64,000 nt of DNA from Gammaproteobacteria bacterium. Lineage in GTDB: Bacteria; Pseudomonadota; Gammaproteobacteria; Burkholderiales; Gallionellaceae. Of this stretch, positions 47,968 through 58,294 are shown piece after piece. The DNA is taken from contig JAHIZO010000009.1 of assembly GCA_018814405.1 (NCBI GenBank), forward strand, positions 124,001-188,000, written 5' to 3'. Position 1 is the stretch's first letter. Each line of letters opens with the position of its first letter. Both the position numbers and the translations under genes were made by a program. Under the pieces are notes generated by a model. The model saw nothing but the letters and a program-made list of their open reading frames with translations. It ran no database searches and was not told the DNA's origin.

Positions 47968-48050
47968 ATTTCCCAATAAGGATGATTAGCGGCCAAAATG
48001 ACATGCAATCCACCTTGCCATAACCGTACATTAGATGAAAATGCAACGCC

Positions 48051-48386
48051 ATGACCGCCTTCAAAAAACTAAAAACAATCAGGGAATTCGAGAAGGTTCG
48101 TATGCCGCACCTGCGCTCTCACGAAGATTTCGACATCGTGATCGAGGTCGGCTATTACGAAGATATGGGAAAACCATTGACGTTCAAGTGTCTGCTATTG
48201 ATGGGGATCTCTTCCGTCTCGACTGTCCAGCGGCGGGTGCATACACTGGTCGAGGAAGGCATCATCACGCGCACCCGCAGCGAAAGCGACCGGCGTAGCA
48301 TCGAGCTCGGCGTATCCAGCCAGACGCGCAAACTGATAGATCGCTACGTCAAGATGCTGCACACCCACGTAACGAAGCCAACTTGA
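48051..48386 (+). CDS. Small winged-helix (MarR-like) transcriptional regulator
   Basis: 111 aa. The central part, SSVSTVQRRVHTLVEEGIITRTRSESDRRSIELG (about 61-95), has the recognition helix and wing layout of MarR proteins, including the Asp-Arg-Arg turn of the wing. It is shorter than most MarR proteins, so the dimerisation helices are reduced. There is no clear ribosome binding site before the ATG at 48051. It is divergent from sdhC and may control the TCA operon or its own operon; that is inference from position. The next small gene starts two bases after its stop. Confidence 0.68.
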   Translation: MTAFKKLKTIREFEKVRMPHLRSHEDFDIVIEVGYYEDMGKPLTFKCLLLMGISSVSTVQRRVHTLVEEGIITRTRSESDRRSIELGVSSQTRKLIDRYVKMLHTHVTKPT

Positions 48387-48387
48387 T

Positions 48388-48624
48388 ATGCTCATCAACC
48401 AAGCCGAATTCCATAGCAAGGAAGCGATCAAACAGCACGTGGTGCATGCACTAAGTGCCTATGGCGTAGTGGAGAGTATCCATATCCTGGAACCGGCCCC
48501 CAGTAATCCCGTGCTTCTCATCCTCGCCACGATGATCGATATGGAACAAGCCCGTATTGCCTCCAGTTCACTCGGTCTCCGCTCTTTCGGACACAAATCG
48601 CTGATCATCCCCATCTCGCAGTAG
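48388..48624 (+). CDS. Small conserved-looking protein of unknown function
   Basis: 78 aa, starting two bases after the regulator's stop, which argues that it is real and co-translated. No signal peptide, no cysteines, no repeated motif; it has an alpha-beta-alpha-beta flavour with a hydrophobic stretch [13 protein letters not shown] at about 39-51. I do not recognise a family. It sits between a regulator and malate dehydrogenase. Confidence 0.5.
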
Positions 48625-48700
48625 CATTCCCAAACGCTTTCTTCCGCTGCACAAGGAACACTGGCAGAATACCTGCCACACCCACCCGCAGGAGGAAACC

Positions 48701-49693
48701 ATGAAAGCGCCCGTCCGTGTCACCATCACCGGAGCAGCAGGTCAGATCGGTTACAACATGCTCTTCCGAATTGCGAACGGCGATATGCTGGGTCGTGAAC
48801 AACCCGTCATCCTGCAATTGCTAGATATCACCCCCGCGCAACAAGCACTGCGCGGCGTTGCGATGGAGTTGGAAGATTGCGCATTCCCCATGCTGCAGCA
48901 AGTCATCACCACCGACGATCCTCGCGTAGCGTTCCGAGATACTGAAGTCGTCCTCATGGTCGGTGCCCGTCCGCGCAGCAAGGGCATGGAACGCAAGGAT
49001 CTGCTTGAAGCTAACGGCGCCATTTTCTCTGAACAAGGGCGCATCCTGAATGAAGTTGCAGCACGCCATGTGAAGGTATTGGTCGTCGGCAACCCAGCCA
49101 ACACCAATGCTTTGATCGCGATGAAAAACGCGCCCGACCTCGACCCGCGCAACTTCACCGCGATGATGCGCCTTGATCACAACCGCGCCATCACTCAAGT
49201 TTCACTAAAGCTGTTCCAGCCGATCCAAGACATCAAGAAGATGGTCGTCTGGGGAAATCACTCCGGCACACAATATCCCGACCTGTCGCATGCGGAGATC
49301 CGCGGTCGCAATGTGATCGACGTTCTGAAGCAGAACAATTGGGAAGATTGGATCGAAAGTGATTTTATCCCCACGGTGCAGAAGCGCGGCGCCGCCGTGA
49401 TCGAAGCACGCGGCCTTTCCAGCGCAGCCAGCGCAGCCAATGCAGCGATCAGCCATATACATGACTGGATGCTACGTTCTCACCACAACGACTGGGTCAC
49501 GATGAGTGTGCCATCCGACGGCAGCTATGGCATCCCAGAAGGTGTGATGTACGGATTCCCTGTAATCTGCCGTAACGGGCATTACACGATCGTGCAGGGA
49601 TTGCCTATCACTGAGCTGGGACGCAAACACATGATGGACAGCCATAAAGAGCTGATGGAAGAACGTTCTCACGTGACACATTTGCTGGGTTGA
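48701..49693 (+). CDS. mdh: Malate dehydrogenase (NAD)
   Basis: Oxidises malate to oxaloacetate. 330 aa, the long LDH-like MDH common in betaproteobacteria. [20 protein letters not shown] at the nucleotide site, [19 protein letters not shown] with substrate arginines, [12 protein letters not shown], and the catalytic His in [13 protein letters not shown] strong GCAGGAGG stands before the ATG. Transcribed opposite to the sdh-suc operon. Confidence 0.97.
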
Positions 49694-49705
49694 GAAGCGA
49701 CTACA

Positions 49706-49737
49706 CCTGAATACCCCTAAACTTTATGGGATTCAGG
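49706..49737 (+). terminator. Possible mdh terminator hairpin
   Basis: CCTGAAT(A)CCC pairs with GGGATTCAGG around an A/T-rich loop, 13 bases after the mdh stop. No T-run follows, so it may only stabilise the mRNA end. Confidence 0.35.
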
Positions 49738-49782
49738 CCGATAGTGGCTCTACAACGCAAGGCTTCAGGGGGGAAGAACGGC

Positions 49783-51873
49783 ATGCAAAATAAGAACGCG
49801 TACGTCTCGCAAAAAGAAGAATCGTTCCCAGCTGGAACGGTTCTTATTTCCAAGACCGACACCAAGGGCATCATCACTTATGTGAATGATGCTTTCGTGC
49901 ACATCTCCGGTTATTCTCGCGAAGAGTTGATCGGCAAAAGTCACAACATCGTACGCCACCCGGATATGCCACCCCAGGCATTCAAGTGGTTGTGGGACAC
50001 CCTCAAGGACGAACATCCTTGGCGCGGATTCGTCAAGAACCGCTGCAAAAACGGGGATCACTACTGGGTGCACGCCACTGTAGCCCCCATCATCGAAAAT
50101 AGTGCCATTACGGGTTATGTCTCGGTTCGACGCCCTCCATCGCGTGAAGAGATCGCCGCTACCGATTCGCTGTATGCAGAGTTGCGCAACAGCAATCAAC
50201 AGATAGTTTCCGCTTATGAGCGCTACAAATTCAAGAACTGGTCGCTTACTTCCAAGTTGCAGTTCCTGATCCAGATGTCTCTAGTGATAGTGTTGGCTGG
50301 CGCACAATTGTTCGTCTCTTCCAACCTGCGCGAAGAATCAAGAATCCTTGCAGAAGAAAAAGGGGCTCAAGTCGCTAACGAGATCATCGACGGCGCCAAC
50401 CTGTTAATGGTCACCGGCCAAATCAGCGAAGCTGAAAATCGCAAGCTACTTCTCCACAAAGTCACTACCGGCGTGAATATCAAATCGGCTCAACTGGTTC
50501 GTGCTCAACCGGTTATCGATCTATATGGCGCAGGCTTGCCTGAAGAAAGTATCAAAGATGAAGCTCAACGTGAGGCTATAGCGCTCAAGAAATCCATCAT
50601 TAGCTACGGCAATGATATTCAGGGAAAACCATTCCTGCGTGTAATCACCCCCTATGCGGCCAGCAAGGACTTCCACGGCACAGACTGTACCGGCTGCCAC
50701 CAGACGGAAGAAGGCGCCATACTCGGCGCTTCGGATGTCATGATAGATCTCGCCCCCGACTACGCTCGCATCAACCATATGGAGATGCAGACCATCCTCG
50801 GCCAAGTCGCTCTGCATGTCTTCTTGTATTTTTTCATCGGCTTCTGCGTCAAACGTTACGTTCGCCAGCCAGCTGCTGCCGTGCGCAGTGAGTTCCGCAA
50901 CATCATGGAAGGCAATCTGGACGGTCAGCTCGATATCTCCACTCGTGATGAGATGGGGCAGTTACTGTGCGAGATCCAGACCATGCAGACCTATTTGCGC
51001 ACCACGGTGGATGAAATTGTCACCCCCGTGAAAAAGATACAGGGACGCATCACGGAAATGGATCAGCGCGTGAGCACAGTGGCCGACAACGCCATGATCG
51101 AACGTGACAACATCCAGCAAATCACCCGCACCATGGAACAGTTCAGCCAGTCAGTGGAAGAAGTCTCGCACATGGCGAATGATTCCCTGCAGGATGCCAA
51201 AGCCATGCAGCGCGTCGTGGAAGAGAACAACCGCAACATGGAACTGAGCATCGAAGCGACCGGCGAGGTCGCCAGCACGGTGCAATCTTCCAGCAAGACG
51301 ATCTCTGATCTGGGGCAAGCCATCCAGCGCATCGGTGTCATCGCCGACACCATCAAAGAGATCGCCGACCAGACCAACCTGCTGGCACTTAATGCAGCCA
51401 TCGAAGCGGCTCGCGCTGGGGAACAGGGGCGCGGCTTTGCAGTTGTCGCAGATGAAGTGCGCAAGCTGGCCGAACGTACTGCGAACAGTACGACCGACAT
51501 CACGCGCAACATCGGCGAGATCACTGCCATCTCCGACACGGCAGTGAGCTCCATGGAGCACTCCGTCAGCAAAGTGAGTCAGAGCATAGACCTGATACGC
51601 AAGAATGGGGACGGCCTGAAAGAGATCATGAGCGCCTCGGTCAATGTCGCCTCACGCGTCGACCACATTGCCAAGGCATCCAGTGACCAGACAGCTGCAG
51701 GCAAACAAGTGGCCGAAAGTCTGGAGCGCATCACGGCCTTGGTTGAACACAACGCCAGCTCCTCGTCAGAAGCTAAGGCATCCGCTGAAGAACTGGCGAA
51801 GTCGGCTATCGAATTGCGCAAAGCCGGCTATCCATTGACCAAGTGCGGCATGGAAGAAAACAGCAAGGATTGA
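49783..51873 (+). CDS. PAS-domain methyl-accepting chemotaxis protein with a periplasmic c-type haem motif
   Basis: 696 aa from the ATG at 49783 (GGGGGGAAG upstream; an in-frame start at 49726 lacks one). Cytoplasmic N-terminal Aer-like PAS domain at about 15-120 ([34 protein letters not shown]). Membrane helix at about 157-178. Periplasmic domain to about 335 with CTGCH at residues 302-306, a covalent haem-attachment site. Second helix at about 338-355, HAMP, then the signalling domain with hairpin tip [20 protein letters not shown]. Likely senses redox state, oxygen or nitric oxide at the haem, possibly also through the PAS domain. The ccm operon in this window could mature it. Confidence 0.9.
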
Positions 51874-51878
51874 GGCAC

Positions 51879-51906
51879 GGTCAGGCAAATCATTCCTTGC
51901 CTGACC
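51879..51906 (+). terminator. Hairpin after the chemoreceptor gene
   Basis: Perfect 10-base-pair stem GGTCAGGCAA/TTGCCTGACC with an 8-base loop, six bases past the stop. A weak T-containing tail follows. It separates the chemoreceptor from the AmmeMemoRadiSam genes. Confidence 0.55.
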
Positions 51907-51955
51907 TCCGTTTGCGTCCTATGCTGACAACATGCAGTCCCTCATAGGGGTCGCC

Positions 51956-52756
51956 ATGTTGAACATACGTCCGCCAGCTGTAGCCGGCACCTTCTATCCA
52001 GCCGATGCAAATATCCTGACCAAGGATCTGCGAACGATGCTGGCTAGTCACCCTGACACAGGGCTCGCCCCCAAGGCGCTGATCGTGCCACATGCCGGCT
52101 ATATATATTCGGGGGCCATTGCCGCCAGTGCATATGCCAGTCTGCGTCCTGTCGCCTCACACATCCGCCGCGTGGTCTTGCTCGGTCCTACCCATCGCAT
52201 CGCGGTACGCGGCTTGGCAATGCCCGATGCCGACACCTTCGCGACACCGCTAGGGCCAATCAGCTTGGATACGGAAGCGATGTCAGCCATTTCATCCCTG
52301 CCCCAGATCACAGTCAGCGCCGCAGCCCACGCTTTCGAGCACTCACTAGAAGTCCAGCTTCCTTTCCTGCAAATGGTGCTGCACGATTTCACCCTGCTGC
52401 CACTGGCAGTGGGCAATGCCAGCGCCGAGGAAGTCTTTGAAGTACTGCAAAAGCTTTGGGGCGGCGAAGAGACGCTGATCGTGATCAGCTCCGATCTTTC
52501 CCACTATCTGCCCTACGAAGTATCCCGACTGGTAGACCACAAGACCGCGCAGGACATCCTCAAGCTGCGCCCCAGCATCACGCATGACGAGGCATGCGGT
52601 GCCACACCGATCAATGGCCTACTGCTGTCCGCGCGGGCGCACCACCTTACGCCGCATCTGCTCGACCTGCGTAACTCCGGCGACACTGCCGGTCCGCGCG
52701 ATGGTGTGGTCGGCTATGCAGGCTTTGCCTTTTGCGAGGAGAAGAACCATGGATGA
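51956..52756 (+). CDS. amrB: AmmeMemoRadiSam system protein B (Memo-like)
   Basis: 266 aa from the ATG at 51956, which has AGGGG five bases upstream. Memo fold related to class III extradiol dioxygenases: His46 (VPHAGYIYSG), His80 (GPTHRI) and Cys214 (EACGATPI) line up with the metal-site-like residues of human MEMO1; a further SSDLSHYLPY histidine is present. The biochemical role in bacteria is not established. It overlaps the next gene by 8 bases, and the three genes form a tight operon. Confidence 0.92.
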   Translation: MLNIRPPAVAGTFYPADANILTKDLRTMLASHPDTGLAPKALIVPHAGYIYSGAIAASAYASLRPVASHIRRVVLLGPTHRIAVRGLAMPDADTFATPLGPISLDTEAMSAISSLPQITVSAAAHAFEHSLEVQLPFLQMVLHDFTLLPLAVGNASAEEVFEVLQKLWGGEETLIVISSDLSHYLPYEVSRLVDHKTAQDILKLRPSITHDEACGATPINGLLLSARAHHLTPHLLDLRNSGDTAGPRDGVVGYAGFAFCEEKNHG

Positions 52757-53309
52757 AAAGCAACATGGATTGACTTTACTGCGGCTGGCGCGCGCCGCCA
52801 TCGCCCACGAGTTTGGCTTCGATTCGCACGATCTGCCACGCATCGATTGGCTGGAGCAAGACGGCGCAACCTTTGTAACATTGAACCTGCATGGCCGTTT
52901 GCGCGGTTGCATAGGTAGTCTGGAAGCACACCGTGCGCTGATCGACGATGTGCGCCACAACGCTATTGCGGCCGCATTCAATGATCCGCGCTTCCCGCCG
53001 CTAAGCCGCGAAGAGTTCGCCGAGGTGACAATAGAGGTATCCCTGCTTGCCCCTCCCGAACCGATCCGCTTCAGCAGCGAAAGTGACGTATTGGCCCAAC
53101 TCCATCCCGGCCAGGATGGCGTGATCCTTGAATATGGCCACAGCCGCGCCACCTATCTACCTCAGGTATGGGCGCAATTGCCCGAACCGGCGGACTTCAT
53201 AAGCAACCTGAAAGAGAAGGCGGGGCTGCCTGCCGATTTCTGGTCTGACGACATCCGCATCTCCCGCTACAGCGTGCGCAAATACAGTGAAGGAGCCTCT
53301 GATGGATGA
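52749..53309 (+). CDS. amrA: AmmeMemoRadiSam system protein A (AMMECR1-like)
   Basis: 186 aa from the ATG at 52749, inside the end of the Memo-like gene. It carries the family motif LRGCIGSLE at residues 51-59, then FNDPRFPPLSREEF and IEVSLLAPPEPI, and ends with the usual YSVRKYSE. AMMECR1 proteins have an invariant Cys in this motif but no proven activity. Its last 8 bases overlap the radical SAM gene. Confidence 0.92.
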   Translation: MDEKQHGLTLLRLARAAIAHEFGFDSHDLPRIDWLEQDGATFVTLNLHGRLRGCIGSLEAHRALIDDVRHNAIAAAFNDPRFPPLSREEFAEVTIEVSLLAPPEPIRFSSESDVLAQLHPGQDGVILEYGHSRATYLPQVWAQLPEPADFISNLKEKAGLPADFWSDDIRISRYSVRKYSEGASDG

Positions 53310-54393
53310 ACCGATCAGCATCGAAGAACGCTATCCAGCCAGATACTGGCACCTGCTCGATGACGGACGTATCCAGTGTGACCTGTGTCCGCGTGACTGC
53401 AAGCTAAAAGAGGGCCAGCGCGGTGCCTGCTTCGTCAGAGGGCGCATCAATGATGCGATGGTGCTCACCACCTATGGACGAAGTTCCGGTTTCTGCGTAG
53501 ACCCTATCGAGAAGAAACCGCTCAATCACTTCTATCCCGGCAGCAGCATCCTGTCGTTCGGTACGGCAGGATGCAATCTGGCCTGCAAGTTCTGCCAGAA
53601 CTGGGATATCTCCAAGGCACGCAATTTCGACAAGCTCGCTGACCAGGCCTCTCCTGAAGCGATTGCCAGCACCGCACTTGAGCTGGAGTGCAGGAGCGTG
53701 GCATTCACCTATAACGATCCGGTGATCTTTGCCGAGTATGCGATGGATGTGGCGGATGCTTGCCATGCGGTGGGTATAAGCACCGTCGCTGTGACAGCTG
53801 GCTATATCCATGCGCAGCCACGAAACGACTTCTTCACCAAGATGGATGCAGCCAACGTGGATCTCAAATCATTTACCGACGCGTTCTATTTCAAACAGAC
53901 CGGAGCGCATCTGCAACCGGTGCTGGAAACGCTGCAGTACTTATGCAAGGAAACCGATGTGTGGGTGGAGCTGACTACGCTATTGATCCCGGGGCACAAC
54001 GACAGTGCGCATGAGATCGGCAAGATGTGCGAATGGATTACAAAAGAACTCGGGCAGGATGTACCGCTGCATTTCACCGCCTTCCATCCCGATTACAAGA
54101 TGACGAACATTACGGCTACGCCCGCCTCGAAACTATCAGAAGCGCGACACATAGGCCAGGCAGCGGGCTTGCATCATGTCTATACGGGTAACGTGCACGA
54201 CACGAGTGGCGGAACGACGTACTGCGCGCACTGTACGCAAGCGCTCATCGTGCGTGATTGGTATGACATCCGTGACTACCAACTCACCGCGCAAGGAAAA
54301 TGTCCGCATTGCGGCAGCCCACTCGCCGGTCGCTTCGGAAAGTATGAAAGTCAGTTCGGGATGAAGCGTATTCCGATCAACATCGGACGCTGA
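53302..54393 (+). CDS. amrS: AmmeMemoRadiSam system radical SAM enzyme
   Basis: 363 aa from the ATG at 53302 (AGGAG six bases upstream). Radical SAM motif CNLACKFC with Cys91, Cys95 and Cys98 to bind a 4Fe-4S cluster. An N-terminal Cys cluster (Cys26, 29, 33, 43; CDLCPRDC) and a C-terminal CxxC pair (YCAHC, CPHCGSP) give further probable metal sites. The family resembles pyruvate formate-lyase activating enzymes (AMP-like PflA relatives), and the substrate is unknown. Third gene of the operon, with every junction overlapping, which suggests a complex of fixed stoichiometry. Confidence 0.93.
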   Translation: MDEPISIEERYPARYWHLLDDGRIQCDLCPRDCKLKEGQRGACFVRGRINDAMVLTTYGRSSGFCVDPIEKKPLNHFYPGSSILSFGTAGCNLACKFCQNWDISKARNFDKLADQASPEAIASTALELECRSVAFTYNDPVIFAEYAMDVADACHAVGISTVAVTAGYIHAQPRNDFFTKMDAANVDLKSFTDAFYFKQTGAHLQPVLETLQYLCKETDVWVELTTLLIPGHNDSAHEIGKMCEWITKELGQDVPLHFTAFHPDYKMTNITATPASKLSEARHIGQAAGLHHVYTGNVHDTSGGTTYCAHCTQALIVRDWYDIRDYQLTAQGKCPHCGSPLAGRFGKYESQFGMKRIPINIGR

Positions 54394-54403
54394 ACTCTCA
54401 GCC

Positions 54404-55876
54404 TTAGATCAATGAGACCTGCGTCTCACCAGGAATATCGTCGCAGAACTTTTCTGCAACGGCTGCGAATTCATGCTTGATCTTTTTGAAAACCTCGACG
54501 ATATCCGGATCGAAATGCTTGCCACTGCCTTCCTCGATGACTTTCACGACATCGTCGTGAAGGACTGCATTTTTGTACACGCGCCGAGAGGCCACTGCAT
54601 CGTAGACATCCGCCACCGCCATCAATCTGGCTGATATGGGTATGTCATCGCCCTTTAACCCGAACGGGTAGCCGCTACCGTCCCACTTCTCATGATGGCT
54701 GACTGCGATCTGCCGGGCGATGCGCAAGAAGTGGCTGCGGATGTTGACCTCATTCTCGGCTGCCGCGATGGCATTCCCCCCCAATAATGCGTGCTGCTTC
54801 ATGATCTCGAACTCTTCCTCGGTCAGCTTGCTCGGTTTCAGCAGGATATGATCCGGAATGCCTACTTTCCCCACATCGTGCAACGGTGCCAGTTTGAACA
54901 GCAGTTCGATGTTCTCTTCGTTCAGAAAATCTCTGAACCTGGGATGATCTCGCAAGTGCAGCGCCAACAGGCGAACATAGTGCTGTGTGCGCTTGATGTG
55001 GTTGCCAGTCTCGTTGTCACGCGTCTCGGCCAGGGAGGAAAGCGCGAGTATGGTCGCATCCTTGATCAGACTGATCTCCTCCGTCCGTTGCCGCAATTGC
55101 GAGGTGCGTTCTCGCACCATATTCTCCAGGCCTTCTTCATGCTCCCGCAATTCCGCATTCGCCTGCTCCAGGCTGGCGCGCGCGTCTTCAGTCGCATTCC
55201 TTTGTGCCTCCAGCTCAAGCAATAAGGCACTGTTCTCGAAGCGCTGCTGCAGCACCTGAAGGTAATTACGTGACACCACCCTGCCGGCAAACAATACAAC
55301 CAGATTGAACAGCAGCAGCATACCGGCGATCTTCCAGTGCACAGCATCGTTCTCGCTGGCCACGCGCAACATCAACGGCACCATGATGCCGGCAAGATAA
55401 GAAATTGAAGCGGGCGGGTGTACCGGATTCAGGGTGATCGCCACAGCAACCAACCCGGTCATGATGCTGATCATCATGCCTTGGTTAAGCAGGTCGGCAG
55501 GAAAGAAGATCACGGCGGCAAGCCCCCATAGCAAGCCGGAGATCAAAGCGAAGTAAGTGAAATGCTGATGCCAGTCATGACAATCTTCGAGCGTCCTCAG
55601 GCGATGCCGGAATTGCAGCCACTTGGCCAGCTCGACCAGATGCAAGCCCAATGAAGCGCAAAGCCACAGCACCATCGCATCCTGATGGCCCTGCTCCCAA
55701 TATAACCAGACGAACAGAAGCTGCATGCCCATCTGCCCCAGCACCATCGCCGGAAACATCTCCATACGGGTACGCAACTGTTCTCTGAGTATCTTCAGAT
55801 CGTCCGGATCCAGCGAGAATCCCCAGTCGAACCAATTCAGACGAAGGTGCTTGGACTGTTTTGTTGAGATATCCAT
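54404..55876 (-). CDS. Membrane HD-GYP domain protein (predicted c-di-GMP phosphodiesterase)
   Basis: 490 aa from the ATG at 55876, preceded by GGAG. Six hydrophobic helices between about 42 and 200 form a membrane sensor region without a large periplasmic domain; a coiled coil runs from about 205 to 270; the HD-GYP domain fills the rest, with HD at 333-334 ([11 protein letters not shown]), HHEKWDG at 394-400 and GYP at 402-404. The full HD-GYP motif supports phosphodiesterase activity toward c-di-GMP. The CZB-type gene lies 60 bases upstream on the same strand, suggesting joint transcription. It converges with the AmmeMemoRadiSam operon. Confidence 0.9.
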
Positions 55877-55936
55877 GATCGACTCCAAACAGGAAGGCTC
55901 CCCGAAGGGAATTCCCATTAGTCAAAAGGATGTAAC

Positions 55937-56359
55937 CTAGGCCATCTCGAATGCCAGATGCAGCTTGGCAAGATTCGACTGGTAACGATCCGATGCGTCC
56001 TTGAAGAATCGGCTACCGCGCACGATGGCCATAGCGGCCTCGCGCTTTCCCAGATCGACCAGCATCAAAGCCTGAGAGGCGGCCTCGTGAAACTCATAGC
56101 AACTCTCTTGGAGATCATTCAGCAAATTCACATCCGAGCAATGCTTACCACCCTCACCGTACAACCATTTGCCGACCAAACAGCCTTCACAACACTCATC
56201 AGGGATGTCCGGTTTTACACTCGAATAACCCTGAACATACGCCTCCACCTGAAAGCGCTGATTGATATGTTGCTGAATAGCGCGAATGCCGTCGAAGCGT
56301 TCTATTGCGACTGATGGGACGGAGTGATATTGAGCCGAACTGCTGATCTGTTTCCACAT
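55937..56359 (-). CDS. Free-standing CZB-type (chemoreceptor zinc-binding) protein
   Basis: 140 aa, mostly one CZB four-helix domain. Motif CLVGKWLYGEGGKH (from Cys60) and HEAASQALML (from His91) match the CxLGKWLY and HxxFH-like elements of CZB domains. Aligned on those, the metal ligands would be His31, Cys60, position 87 and His91; position 87 is Cys, where DgcZ-type domains have His. Extra cysteines are at 56, 57 and 74. CZB domains bind zinc tightly and inhibit attached signalling modules. Here it precedes an HD-GYP gene by 60 bases. Confidence 0.75.
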   Translation of the reverse strand: MWKQISSSAQYHSVPSVAIERFDGIRAIQQHINQRFQVEAYVQGYSSVKPDIPDECCEGCLVGKWLYGEGGKHCSDVNLLNDLQESCYEFHEAASQALMLVDLGKREAAMAIVRGSRFFKDASDRYQSNLAKLHLAFEMA

Positions 56360-56433
56360 GATGCGCCTCCTGCAAAAGACCAGATTGGAGGGTCATACTG
56401 CGCGGAGGTGGCGGCCATTACAATATGCCGAAT

Positions 56434-56464
56434 GGCCTATATCTCGGCCTATGCAACAGCCTAT
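56434..56464. repeat. Three GCCTAT repeats spaced exactly 12 bases apart
   Basis: GGCCTAT (56434), GGCCTAT (56446) and AGCCTAT (56458) lie in the 137 bases between the ATP-grasp gene and the CZB gene, in the expected promoter region of the latter. The fixed spacing is close to one helical turn plus, and could bind a regulator side by side. Confidence 0.3.
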
Positions 56465-56496
56465 ATACAGTAGCTATCCTGTTGATTAAATAGAAA

Positions 56497-57738
56497 TCAT
56501 GAAATTACTCGCACCAGCGCGAAGCCCCCTCCCGGCGTGCGGAAATTGGTGGTTTGTCCCTGATAGAGGCGGGCTGCGATCATTTGGATAGTGCCGGCAT
56601 AGACGTAACAACGCACATCGTATTTCAACGAAACGGACTCGTCGATCAGGCAAACTTTCCGCTCGCCGGGTAGCGCCAAACGTTGCGCGATGTAATCGGC
56701 TTGCATCACTTCTTCGAACACGCGCTTGGTCATCTTGTCGCCGCGATAAGTCCCTTTGCTGCCGTAACCACTCACCGGTTTGAAGAACCATTCCTTGCGA
56801 ACCGACCACCAATGTTCCGCATCTTCGGCCCGTACTATCTCAGTGTGCGGGATGCCCTGCTGTAAAGTCTGGATGACTTCATTGGCCAACCCTGCCGTTC
56901 GTAACGCTTCAGCATCAGTCAGCCAGGCCAACTTGCGCTTGTCTGCATATTTCGCGTGATGCGCAGGCCCCGGCGTCAGCACCACTTGATGCCGCAGCCA
57001 TGCTTCACGCAAGTGCGAATAGCGACTCAGATCAAAATCCGTGAGCCGGTTATAGATGAGATCGATGCGCCGTCCCTCACAGTACAAACCGTCTTCTTGC
57101 GCTGTCAGTTGTACCGGATCGGCAATGAATGCGGCAAGACCGGCGCGTTCGAACATCTGTTTCGTCAGCAAGAATTCAGGATAGAGATATTGCGATTCGG
57201 GTTGCTCATCGACGATGGCGATCGTCTGCAACGGTGTGTCACCGCGCACCAAGCGCCATTCATTGAGGAACATCTCGGTGAATGTGTGTTCAAGCGCTGT
57301 CGCACCTACCGGCTCCCCGTACAGGTTCGCAGTTCGTTGGCTATCGACCAGCAGCGCATTCAGCAGAGCGCCGCCTGCATTGGTGTTGATCTCGATCAGA
57401 TGAACACCCTGCGCATTCAGATGGAAGTCGTAACCGTAGAACACCCCGAGCGGAGCGTTGTTTTCTGATGCGCCGAACGCCTGCTCCGCCGCCGCAATGA
57501 CTTGCTGCATCTGCTGCAACTGCAGGTCGCTGATGAATACCGGTGCCGATGCGAACAGGTGTGGGCAACGTTCGCTCACCAAGCCATACCAGTCTTCACC
57601 TTGCGCCTTCAGCGCGCTGTGCAAGGCTTCGACGTCCATACCTGCCCAATCTAGGCACTCGCCGTTCAGGTGTGCGATGAAGTCCTGATCGACATCAAAA
57701 TGTTCCCTTACCATATCCTGCGACACCGCATCAACCAC
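56497..57738 (-). CDS. ATP-grasp family protein, function unknown
   Basis: 413 aa. A GTG start at 57738 overlaps the stop of the previous gene by 8 bases; an ATG at 57714 is the alternative. ATP-grasp features: VHLIEINTNAGGALLNALL near residue 114 with the metal-binding E-x-N, and KPVSGYGSKGTYRGDKMT (about 317-334) as the nucleotide lysine/glycine loop. Such enzymes join a carboxylate to an amine or thiol. It is not a match to GshB, RimK or the NAGGN synthetase. No signal peptide. Last gene of the thiolase-MFS-chalcone-isomerase-ATP-grasp run. Confidence 0.75.
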   Translation of the reverse strand: MVDAVSQDMVREHFDVDQDFIAHLNGECLDWAGMDVEALHSALKAQGEDWYGLVSERCPHLFASAPVFISDLQLQQMQQVIAAAEQAFGASENNAPLGVFYGYDFHLNAQGVHLIEINTNAGGALLNALLVDSQRTANLYGEPVGATALEHTFTEMFLNEWRLVRGDTPLQTIAIVDEQPESQYLYPEFLLTKQMFERAGLAAFIADPVQLTAQEDGLYCEGRRIDLIYNRLTDFDLSRYSHLREAWLRHQVVLTPGPAHHAKYADKRKLAWLTDAEALRTAGLANEVIQTLQQGIPHTEIVRAEDAEHWWSVRKEWFFKPVSGYGSKGTYRGDKMTKRVFEEVMQADYIAQRLALPGERKVCLIDESVSLKYDVRCYVYAGTIQMIAARLYQGQTTNFRTPGGGFALVRVIS

Positions 57739-58294
57739 CGAGCATCGCCTTCTTCAGGTCATCCTGTGCCGGCTTGTTGCCCAGCCATATCTTCAGCAAC
57801 GCGCGCTTGAACACAGCCCCGGCGATGTTGCCGTACACCTTACCGTTCAAACTGATCTGCGTGCCGCCGGCCGGCTGGTAATCGAGCGTGATGACGTCGC
57901 CCTGTTTTGCTTCGCCGATCTCGTTGAAGATGTCGGCCATCAGCTTAAGTTGCGCCTTCATGGCCTTCAATTCAGCACCATCATGGTTCGCCTGAATCGC
58001 TTCATTGAATGCGCCATACAACTTCTTGCTGCCCAGATCGCGCAACATATGCATCGCGATACGCTGCGGATGCTCATCGGCGATCACCATATCTGCCGAA
58101 GTCTGTTTCTGCGGCAGATAAAGCGCACCGACATAGACCTTGAAGAACCATTTGGTGCGGACACCCGCGCCGTTCAGCACCAGTGTCTGTGTCCCGACCT
58201 GTGCCGAATCACTCACTTTCGCGCCTGCCAATTCAAGCGCCGACAACGGCATACTCGCCAGCAACAGCAACCCCAATATCGCGATACGTCTCAT
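57731..58294 (-). CDS. Periplasmic chalcone-isomerase-fold protein
   Basis: 187 aa from the ATG at 58294 (AGGGGTGAGC upstream; a GTG at 58300 is possible). Signal peptide at 1-19 ending in PLSA or so. The chalcone-isomerase-like fold is recognisable from the KVYVGALYLPQKQTSA segment, the ADEHPQRIAMHMLRDL segment and GGTQISLNGKVYG. Bacterial members lack proven isomerase activity; some bind fatty acids. Overlaps the MFS and ATP-grasp genes. Confidence 0.82.
   Translation of the reverse strand: MRRIAILGLLLLASMPLSALELAGAKVSDSAQVGTQTLVLNGAGVRTKWFFKVYVGALYLPQKQTSADMVIADEHPQRIAMHMLRDLGSKKLYGAFNEAIQANHDGAELKAMKAQLKLMADIFNEIGEAKQGDVITLDYQPAGGTQISLNGKVYGNIAGAVFKRALLKIWLGNKPAQDDLKKAMLGG

Follow-up and report, generated by a model that had tools for sequence, protein, structure and literature searches.

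The window analysed here, a stretch of 64,000 nucleotides from a Gammaproteobacteria bacterium of the Gallionellaceae, contains a run of three forward-strand genes, amrB, amrA and amrS, that encode a Memo-family protein, an AMMECR1-domain protein and a radical S-adenosylmethionine (SAM) enzyme, respectively. The features of this run are as follows.

51956..52756, + strand: amrB, Memo-family protein, 266 aa (TIGR04336 266 bits, Pfam Memo 172 bits)
52749..52756, + strand: amrB/amrA overlap, 8 bases (ATGGATGA)
52749..53309, + strand: amrA, AMMECR1-domain protein, 186 aa (TIGR04335 202 bits, Pfam AMMECR1 165 bits)
53302..53309, + strand: amrA/amrS overlap, 8 bases (ATGGATGA)
53302..54393, + strand: amrS, radical SAM enzyme, 363 aa (TIGR04337 630 bits, Pfam Radical_SAM 53 bits)

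All three proteins exceed the curated NCBIfam cut-off of their own family (AmrB 266 versus 26 bits, AmrA 202 versus 99 bits, AmrS 630 versus 220 bits), and these profile scores exclude a chance match. Mechanically called open reading frames (ORFs) start further upstream (amrB at 51932, amrA at 52584, amrS at 53287); the shorter starts at 51956, 52749 and 53302 are preferred because they lie near where the family profiles begin. The stop of amrB falls inside the first 8 bases of amrA and that of amrA inside the first 8 bases of amrS, with Shine-Dalgarno-like GAGGAG (52736-52741) and GAAGGAG (53289-53295) preceding the amrA and amrS starts, respectively. The genes are adjacent and in B-A-S order, as in AmmeMemoRadiSam systems, and the complete module described in the initial annotation is borne out. 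The triad is a canonical, ordinary system of this kind, which is named, widespread and already known; the source assembly (2,378,963 bases, 10 contigs) holds one amrS, one amrB and one amrA. Methanosarcina acetivorans, included as a control, gives matches to all three family profiles.

The three genes are gained and lost as a set

Of 150 genomes of the window's family, 89 carry amrB, amrA and amrS together, 52 carry none of them and 9 have a mixed set, counts that are not corrected for kinship (over the cut-off singly: amrS 92, amrB 96, amrA 92). This gain and loss as a set, which is new here, makes a joint function of the three genes well supported, as had been supposed from their overlaps. 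Several mixed genomes carry gene fragments (amrS in G092 and G120, amrB in G132) and G101, G117, G123 and G148 hold other incomplete sets, while the triad is also absent from near-complete genomes (94-99%) of one same genus (G046, G063 and G069). The link between the genes is looser in 48 genomes of another class, where 39 carry amrS with amrB and 1 carries neither, and where amrB often lies far from amrS.

The layout of the locus was surveyed in the best 80 of at least 589 confirmed relatives in a scan of GTDB genomes, a sample that leans to near relatives. Thirty-six loci show B-A-S on one strand, 11 a fused BA followed by S, and 14 a BA divergent from S; two of these divergent BA loci are also fused, bringing the fused BA loci to 13 in all. 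The remaining arrangements are S before B/A (1 locus), S alone, with flanks of 2.5 kb or more on each side (8) or short ones (5), and only one of A or B visible (5). No fusion of AmrS to A or B occurs in the 80 relatives. Eleven of the 13 genomes with neither A nor B at the amrS locus carry amrB elsewhere, and no amrB was found in two plasmid records searched alongside them. AmrA and AmrB therefore look like one unit and AmrS like a separable partner, which argues against the fixed three-way stoichiometry proposed at first.

Two family genomes (G072:C29 and G095:C81) have two tandem amrA copies before amrS. An apparent 1038-residue AmrS frame in L136 was treated as a chance opening, its first 679 residues giving no Pfam match.

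Metal sites and conserved residues

Conservation was scored over all loci with a long enough domain match, excluding a second type of system described below; this gives 67 rows for AmrB and AmrA, and 90 rows for AmrS, three of them from a third AmrS class. In the alignments to human MEMO1, chain positions and published numbering are shifted by a constant 3.

52091..52093, + strand: AmrB His46, equivalent to MEMO1 iron ligand H49 (67/67 rows; PMC11081632)
52193..52195, + strand: AmrB His80, equivalent to MEMO1 iron ligand H81 (67/67 rows; PMC11081632)
52595..52597, + strand: AmrB Cys214, equivalent to MEMO1 iron ligand C244 (66/66 rows having a residue there; PMC11081632)
52908..52910, + strand: AmrA Cys54 in the LRGCIG motif (67/67 rows, and 10/10 second-type rows)
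53377..53430, + strand: AmrS N-terminal cluster C26/C29/C33/C43 (C26, C33 and C43 in 90/90 rows)
53572..53595, + strand: AmrS radical SAM motif CxxxCxxC, C91/C95/C98 (90/90 rows; Pfam Radical_SAM 53 bits)
54223..54312, + strand: AmrS C-terminal cluster C308/C311/C334/C337 (90/90 rows)

The iron ligands H49, H81 and C244 are those reported for human MEMO1, which binds iron and for which its authors detected no dioxygenase activity (PMC11081632). AmrB thus has the Memo-type His-His-Cys iron site (H46, H80, C214) and not the His-His-Glu site of LigB-type extradiol dioxygenases, since Cys214 replaces the Glu; of the 'dioxygenase-type metal residues' first ascribed to the protein, H46 and H80 are indeed common with dioxygenases, but the third ligand is that of MEMO1. 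The three ligands are also kept in second-type rows (H46 8/8, H80 8/8, C214 6/6). Four further AmrB residues, E128, H129, D180 and H183, are invariant in 67/67 rows. In AmrA, the LRGCIG motif is the one in which the human disease mutation G177D of AMMECR1 falls (PMC5502304).

The three cysteine clusters noted earlier in AmrS are all present. C29 is invariant in 34/34 rows of one alignment and is Ser in the three class-3 rows, and C311 is not kept in 11/11 second-type rows. The predicted fold of the AmrS core resembles that of pyruvate formate-lyase (PFL) activase, which is the top match by a clear margin and supplies the nearest solved structures; RlmN, TYW1, QueE and lipoyl synthase rank below it, in a ranking that covers listed families only and does not exclude others. 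The third AmrS class (L073, L074 and L075) comprises proteins of about 500 residues with Ser for C29, and no amrA or amrB match was found inside the stretch examined at these loci.

Neighbours of amrS and the search for a fourth gene

The survey of neighbourhoods proposed in the initial annotation as a route to a fourth gene gave a mixed outcome: a minority of canonical amrS genes have an alpha/beta hydrolase gene beside them, and no small peptide conserved at that position emerged. The hydrolase gene is directly 3′ of amrS in 22/80 GTDB loci, 19/31 family loci (two of them weak remnants only) and 0/30 other phylum loci. It is present in 46/150 family genomes, eight of which have no over-cut-off amrS (G018, G022, G047, G076, G079, G107, G110 and G117), and a search of the family genomes did not find it in the window genome. 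The alpha/beta hydrolase is a loose neighbour of amrS and not a core part of the system.

At the hydrolase position, a second cluster has, judged by eye, seemingly lost the catalytic Ser and His. A phosphoribosyltransferase gene follows the amrS-hydrolase pair on the opposite strand in L006, L017, L103, L111, L118 and a few more loci. Candidate small ORFs were rejected as peptide substrates. Of the clusters shared by at least 4 loci, those beside amrS are, from their position and strand, apparently shadow frames of the hydrolase gene, and the remaining two are located some 2 kb or further 5′ of amrS. A link to ispD/ispF was likewise set aside as synteny, these neighbours being on the opposite strand and mostly within one order.

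A second-type system with a candidate peptide

In a phylum survey of 299 genomes, a second AmrS class (AmrS2) scoring 367-397 bits was found in 11 genomes, all within one Pseudomonadota class (the 48 genomes above), and the 11 sequences form one branch of the AmrS tree with support 99. Their loci (L062:5998-10052 and L063-L072) contain amrS2, a small ORF with a twin-arginine translocation (Tat) signal overlapping the amrS2 stop, and a gene for a seemingly exported Memo-AMMECR1 protein, joined in 7/11 loci by a Gate membrane protein. The small ORF, of 47-91 codons, starts within the amrS2 stop in 11/11 loci (overlap of 4 bases in ten, 1 base in L066) and has a twin-arginine pair in 11/11. The NCBIfam Tat-signal model recognises five of the 11 with E values of 0.1 or lower; in a separate search of three of them, one exceeded the model's cut-off. 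No other family is a good fit for these ORFs. In the best-conserved members the peptide ends in a tail of approximately E-x-x-L-x-E-A-D-F-Y-x-P-H-x-L-A-G. The last 12 codons of the five most intact tails, compared pairwise, give 49 synonymous versus 28 non-synonymous differences, a count biased by the choice of intact tails, the other six being less alike. The chance of each small frame being open alone is 0.013 to 0.239, so that any single frame may be chance; what counts as evidence is that the ORFs share their position, their twin arginines and their tail.

The gene after the Tat ORF encodes a Memo-AMMECR1 fusion (AMMECR1 alone in L066), whose N-terminus, judged by eye, bears a signal-peptide-like hydrophobic stretch in 10/10 visible second-type loci; five canonical fusions of the same class (L282, L283 and L285-L287) have no such stretch. 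A Gate-domain membrane protein is encoded 3′ of the exported gene, either directly or with a chemoreceptor or another gene in between, in 13/31 loci examined. A profile of the peptide gives strong matches (E <= 6.6e-14) only in the 11 amrS2 genomes of the 299, from which it was built and for which it is not an independent test, and weak matches in 72 other genomes (best 2.2e-5). The predicted Memo-AMMECR1 fusion has a predicted local distance difference test score (pLDDT) of 89.5, and no domain interface is claimed because the predicted template modelling score (pTM) is only 0.66. AmrS2 itself begins almost directly with its cysteine motif.

One in-frame TGA in ten of eleven second-type rows raised the candidate of a selenocysteine AmrS, which was ruled out: the TGA is the natural stop, one residue past ..GVW, with the profile running beyond. 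In the phylum of a Chloroflexota genome, 44/151 genomes have an AmrS match and the L230 and L231 rows are nearest the second type; in L230 the 450 bases 3′ of amrS encode no such peptide, and in L231 the contig ends at that point. In L268, L269, L270, L274, L276 and L277, a Gate-domain gene follows a Memo-AMMECR1 or Memo gene whose product seems exported, and no amrS2 adjoins them.

Proposed pathway and alternatives

We tentatively favour AmmeMemoRadiSam as a three-gene pathway for one modification, in which AmrS acts first on a peptide or protein and AmrB and AmrA then act as a unit. AmrS, with its glycyl-radical-activase fold, would use SAM and iron-sulphur clusters to abstract hydrogen from a peptide or protein residue and would thereby install the first change; AmrB, as a His-His-Cys iron protein, and AmrA, through its invariant LRGCIG cysteine, would act together on the AmrS product by oxidation, hydrolysis or rearrangement. 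Gene identity, overlaps, conserved residues, joint gain and loss and the predicted fold class of the AmrS core are computed; the peptide or protein nature of the substrate, the step order and the reaction itself are inferred. The second-type arrangement suggests that AmrS may modify a peptide in the cytosol with AmrB and AmrA acting afterwards, and by analogy the same might apply to the window. The sequence 'radical SAM first, Memo later', suggested in the initial annotation, agrees with the second-type loci of other genomes and is a tentative reading for the window. Two published observations favour a peptide substrate: Memo-like proteins occur as fusions with recognition elements of ribosomally synthesised and post-translationally modified peptides (PMC12710340), and peptide-processing systems include a radical SAM domain akin to the one in Memo-AMMECR1 systems (PMC7159879). 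The earlier statement that the bacterial reaction is not established agrees with the portions of literature searched, in which AmmeMemoRadiSam appears as a gene name in a table or legend with no activity, most subscription journals lying outside that search.

A more detailed version appears rather unlikely to us: AmrS2 would modify the tail of the Tat peptide in the cytosol, Tat would export the peptide because it is already modified, the exported Memo-AMMECR1 protein would finish the reaction outside the inner membrane, and canonical triads would work likewise on a substrate encoded elsewhere. As no peptide gene lies near canonical triads, their substrate must be encoded elsewhere or be something else.

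Several observations weigh against the favoured pathway. The set is broken in G039 (100% complete), which has amrS alone, and in G022, which has amrB and amrA without amrS. Among the 48 genomes of the other class, 7 have amrB but give no amrS match at 1e-60 (six of them are <80% complete) and 1 has amrS without amrB. Neither the 80 GTDB loci nor 7 others have a conserved small ORF close to canonical amrS, and the window genome gave no match to the second-type peptide model (20/26 first-look candidates scored). Memo and AMMECR1 exist in eukaryotes too, which are not known to have AmrS. Finally, L280:3021-3143 and the same place in L281, from two genomes of one genus that lack amrS2, encode related tails just ahead of the exported gene; no clear Tat motif accompanies them. 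This weakens the tie between peptide and AmrS2, and the tail may belong to the Memo-AMMECR1 protein rather than to AmrS.

These last tails bear on a possible, if somewhat doubtful, alternative, namely that the second-type Tat peptide serves Memo-AMMECR1 as a small partner subunit or as an escort for export and is not the AmrS2 substrate, and is thus uninformative on canonical systems. Small Tat proteins in formate dehydrogenase regions offer a parallel, and one peptide weakly matches TIGR02811, below its cut-off. However, the peptide start overlaps the amrS2 stop, strong peptide matches are confined to amrS2 genomes in the profile search above, and no Tat-like ORF was found in the 900 bases upstream of the seemingly exported gene in six loci without adjoining amrS2.

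It is also possible, if doubtful, that AmrS and AmrB/AmrA are two enzymes of a pathway acting on something other than a peptide: a small molecule, a lipid-type isoprenoid or an RNA base. The lack of a peptide gene by canonical triads, the presence of RlmN, TYW1, QueE and lipoyl synthase among the AmrS fold matches (though lower than PFL activase) and the Gate-domain (nucleoside recognition) membrane protein after the exported gene all point in this direction, and a 2019 family survey reportedly ties Memo to base and isoprenoid modification. Against this, the best AmrS fold match is an enzyme acting on a protein glycine, the second-type operon has a translationally coupled peptide gene, and the ispD/ispF neighbours sit on the opposite strand and mostly in a single order.

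An improbable role for AmrB and AmrA is that of a mainly iron-handling pair that serves AmrS or its product without catalysing a second step. Iron binding by MEMO1 through equivalent residues, the reported failure to detect dioxygenase activity in it and the invariance of the ligands in AmrB would suit such a pair, but the invariance of E128, H129, D180 and H183 goes beyond the needs of binding, the MEMO1 equivalents of D180 and H183 being reported not to bind metal (PMC11081632). Moreover, the second-type Memo protein seems by eye to be exported and AmrS2 starts almost at its cysteine motif. That AmrS is the activase of a glycyl radical enzyme, with A and B accessory, would suit the nearest solved structures but is very improbable, given scores far below the family cut-offs (TIGR02493 57.8 of 231.75 bits, TIGR02494 56.9 of 174.35 bits).

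We know of no established reaction for Memo or AMMECR1, which are conserved from prokaryotes to humans. Evidence for one pathway with a radical SAM enzyme, together with a candidate peptide in a relative, would make their reaction testable by simple co-expression. A mutation in the LRGCIG motif of AMMECR1 is reported to cause disease (PMC5502304).

Surroundings of the triad in the window

49786..51873, + strand: PAS-HAMP chemoreceptor gene, 82 bases 5′ of amrB (Pfam PAS, HAMP, MCPsignal)
54404..55918, - strand: HD-domain gene, convergent, 10 bases 3′ of amrS, with no fourth amr gene at that place (ORF list, Pfam)

A chemoreceptor gene like that at 49786..51873 lies near amr genes in six other loci, four of them second-type. 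Its translation has a CTGCH (CxxCH) motif in the sensor part, as found in c-type haem sensors. No sigma-70-like promoter was found in 51400-54900 (0, against a mean of 1.9 in shuffled sequences) and no Rfam family in 48000-58000. A mobile-element origin of the triad was rejected, with no phage-collection match and an ordinary GC content (0.54-0.60 for 52-55 kb, inside the 0.52-0.61 of the surroundings). On the AmrS tree the window belongs to a branch of 13 rows that includes Gallionella and Nitrosomonadaceae (support 100), which makes the source organism a probable relative of Gallionella. Twenty plasmid records have some match to the query, four of them covering at least 80% of it. Partial amrS sequences (80% and 66% of the query) occur at L084:8001-8876 and L085:8001-8720, carried by plasmids from a Methylocystis and a methanotrophic Mycobacterium, and the plasmid gene table, itself incomplete, has no gene at those positions. 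The amrS genes of L101 and L102, in records titled Chitinophaga and Halobacteria, are 71-72% identical to the window amrS, and wrong binning is likely.

Comparison with known systems

Relative to PFL activating enzyme (PDB 3CB8, 8FO0), AmrS is longer by residues 1-59 and 296-363, each segment containing four conserved Cys. LigB-type extradiol dioxygenases have the fold and two His ligands in common with AmrB, as reported for MEMO1 (PMC11081632), whereas their third ligand is Glu and that of AmrB is Cys. Human MEMO1 (PDB 7KQ8) is homologous across nearly all of AmrB (E 6.6e-49, 17-row profile) with the same iron ligands. It differs from AmrB by insertions. MEMO1 is not known to have an AmrS partner in humans. 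The AMMECR1-domain structures 1WSC, 1VAJ and 1ZQ7, which are archaeal, are homologous over most of AmrA and are named hypothetical proteins in a listing without function. The closest system is AmmeMemoRadiSam itself (TIGR04335, TIGR04336, TIGR04337), which the window matches in all three proteins above the cut-off, in adjacency and in B-A-S order; it differs from near relatives in having no alpha/beta hydrolase gene, which comes after amrS in many of them, and there is no essential difference. Within this recognised class of systems the window's triad is unremarkable, and the useful lead comes from outside the window.
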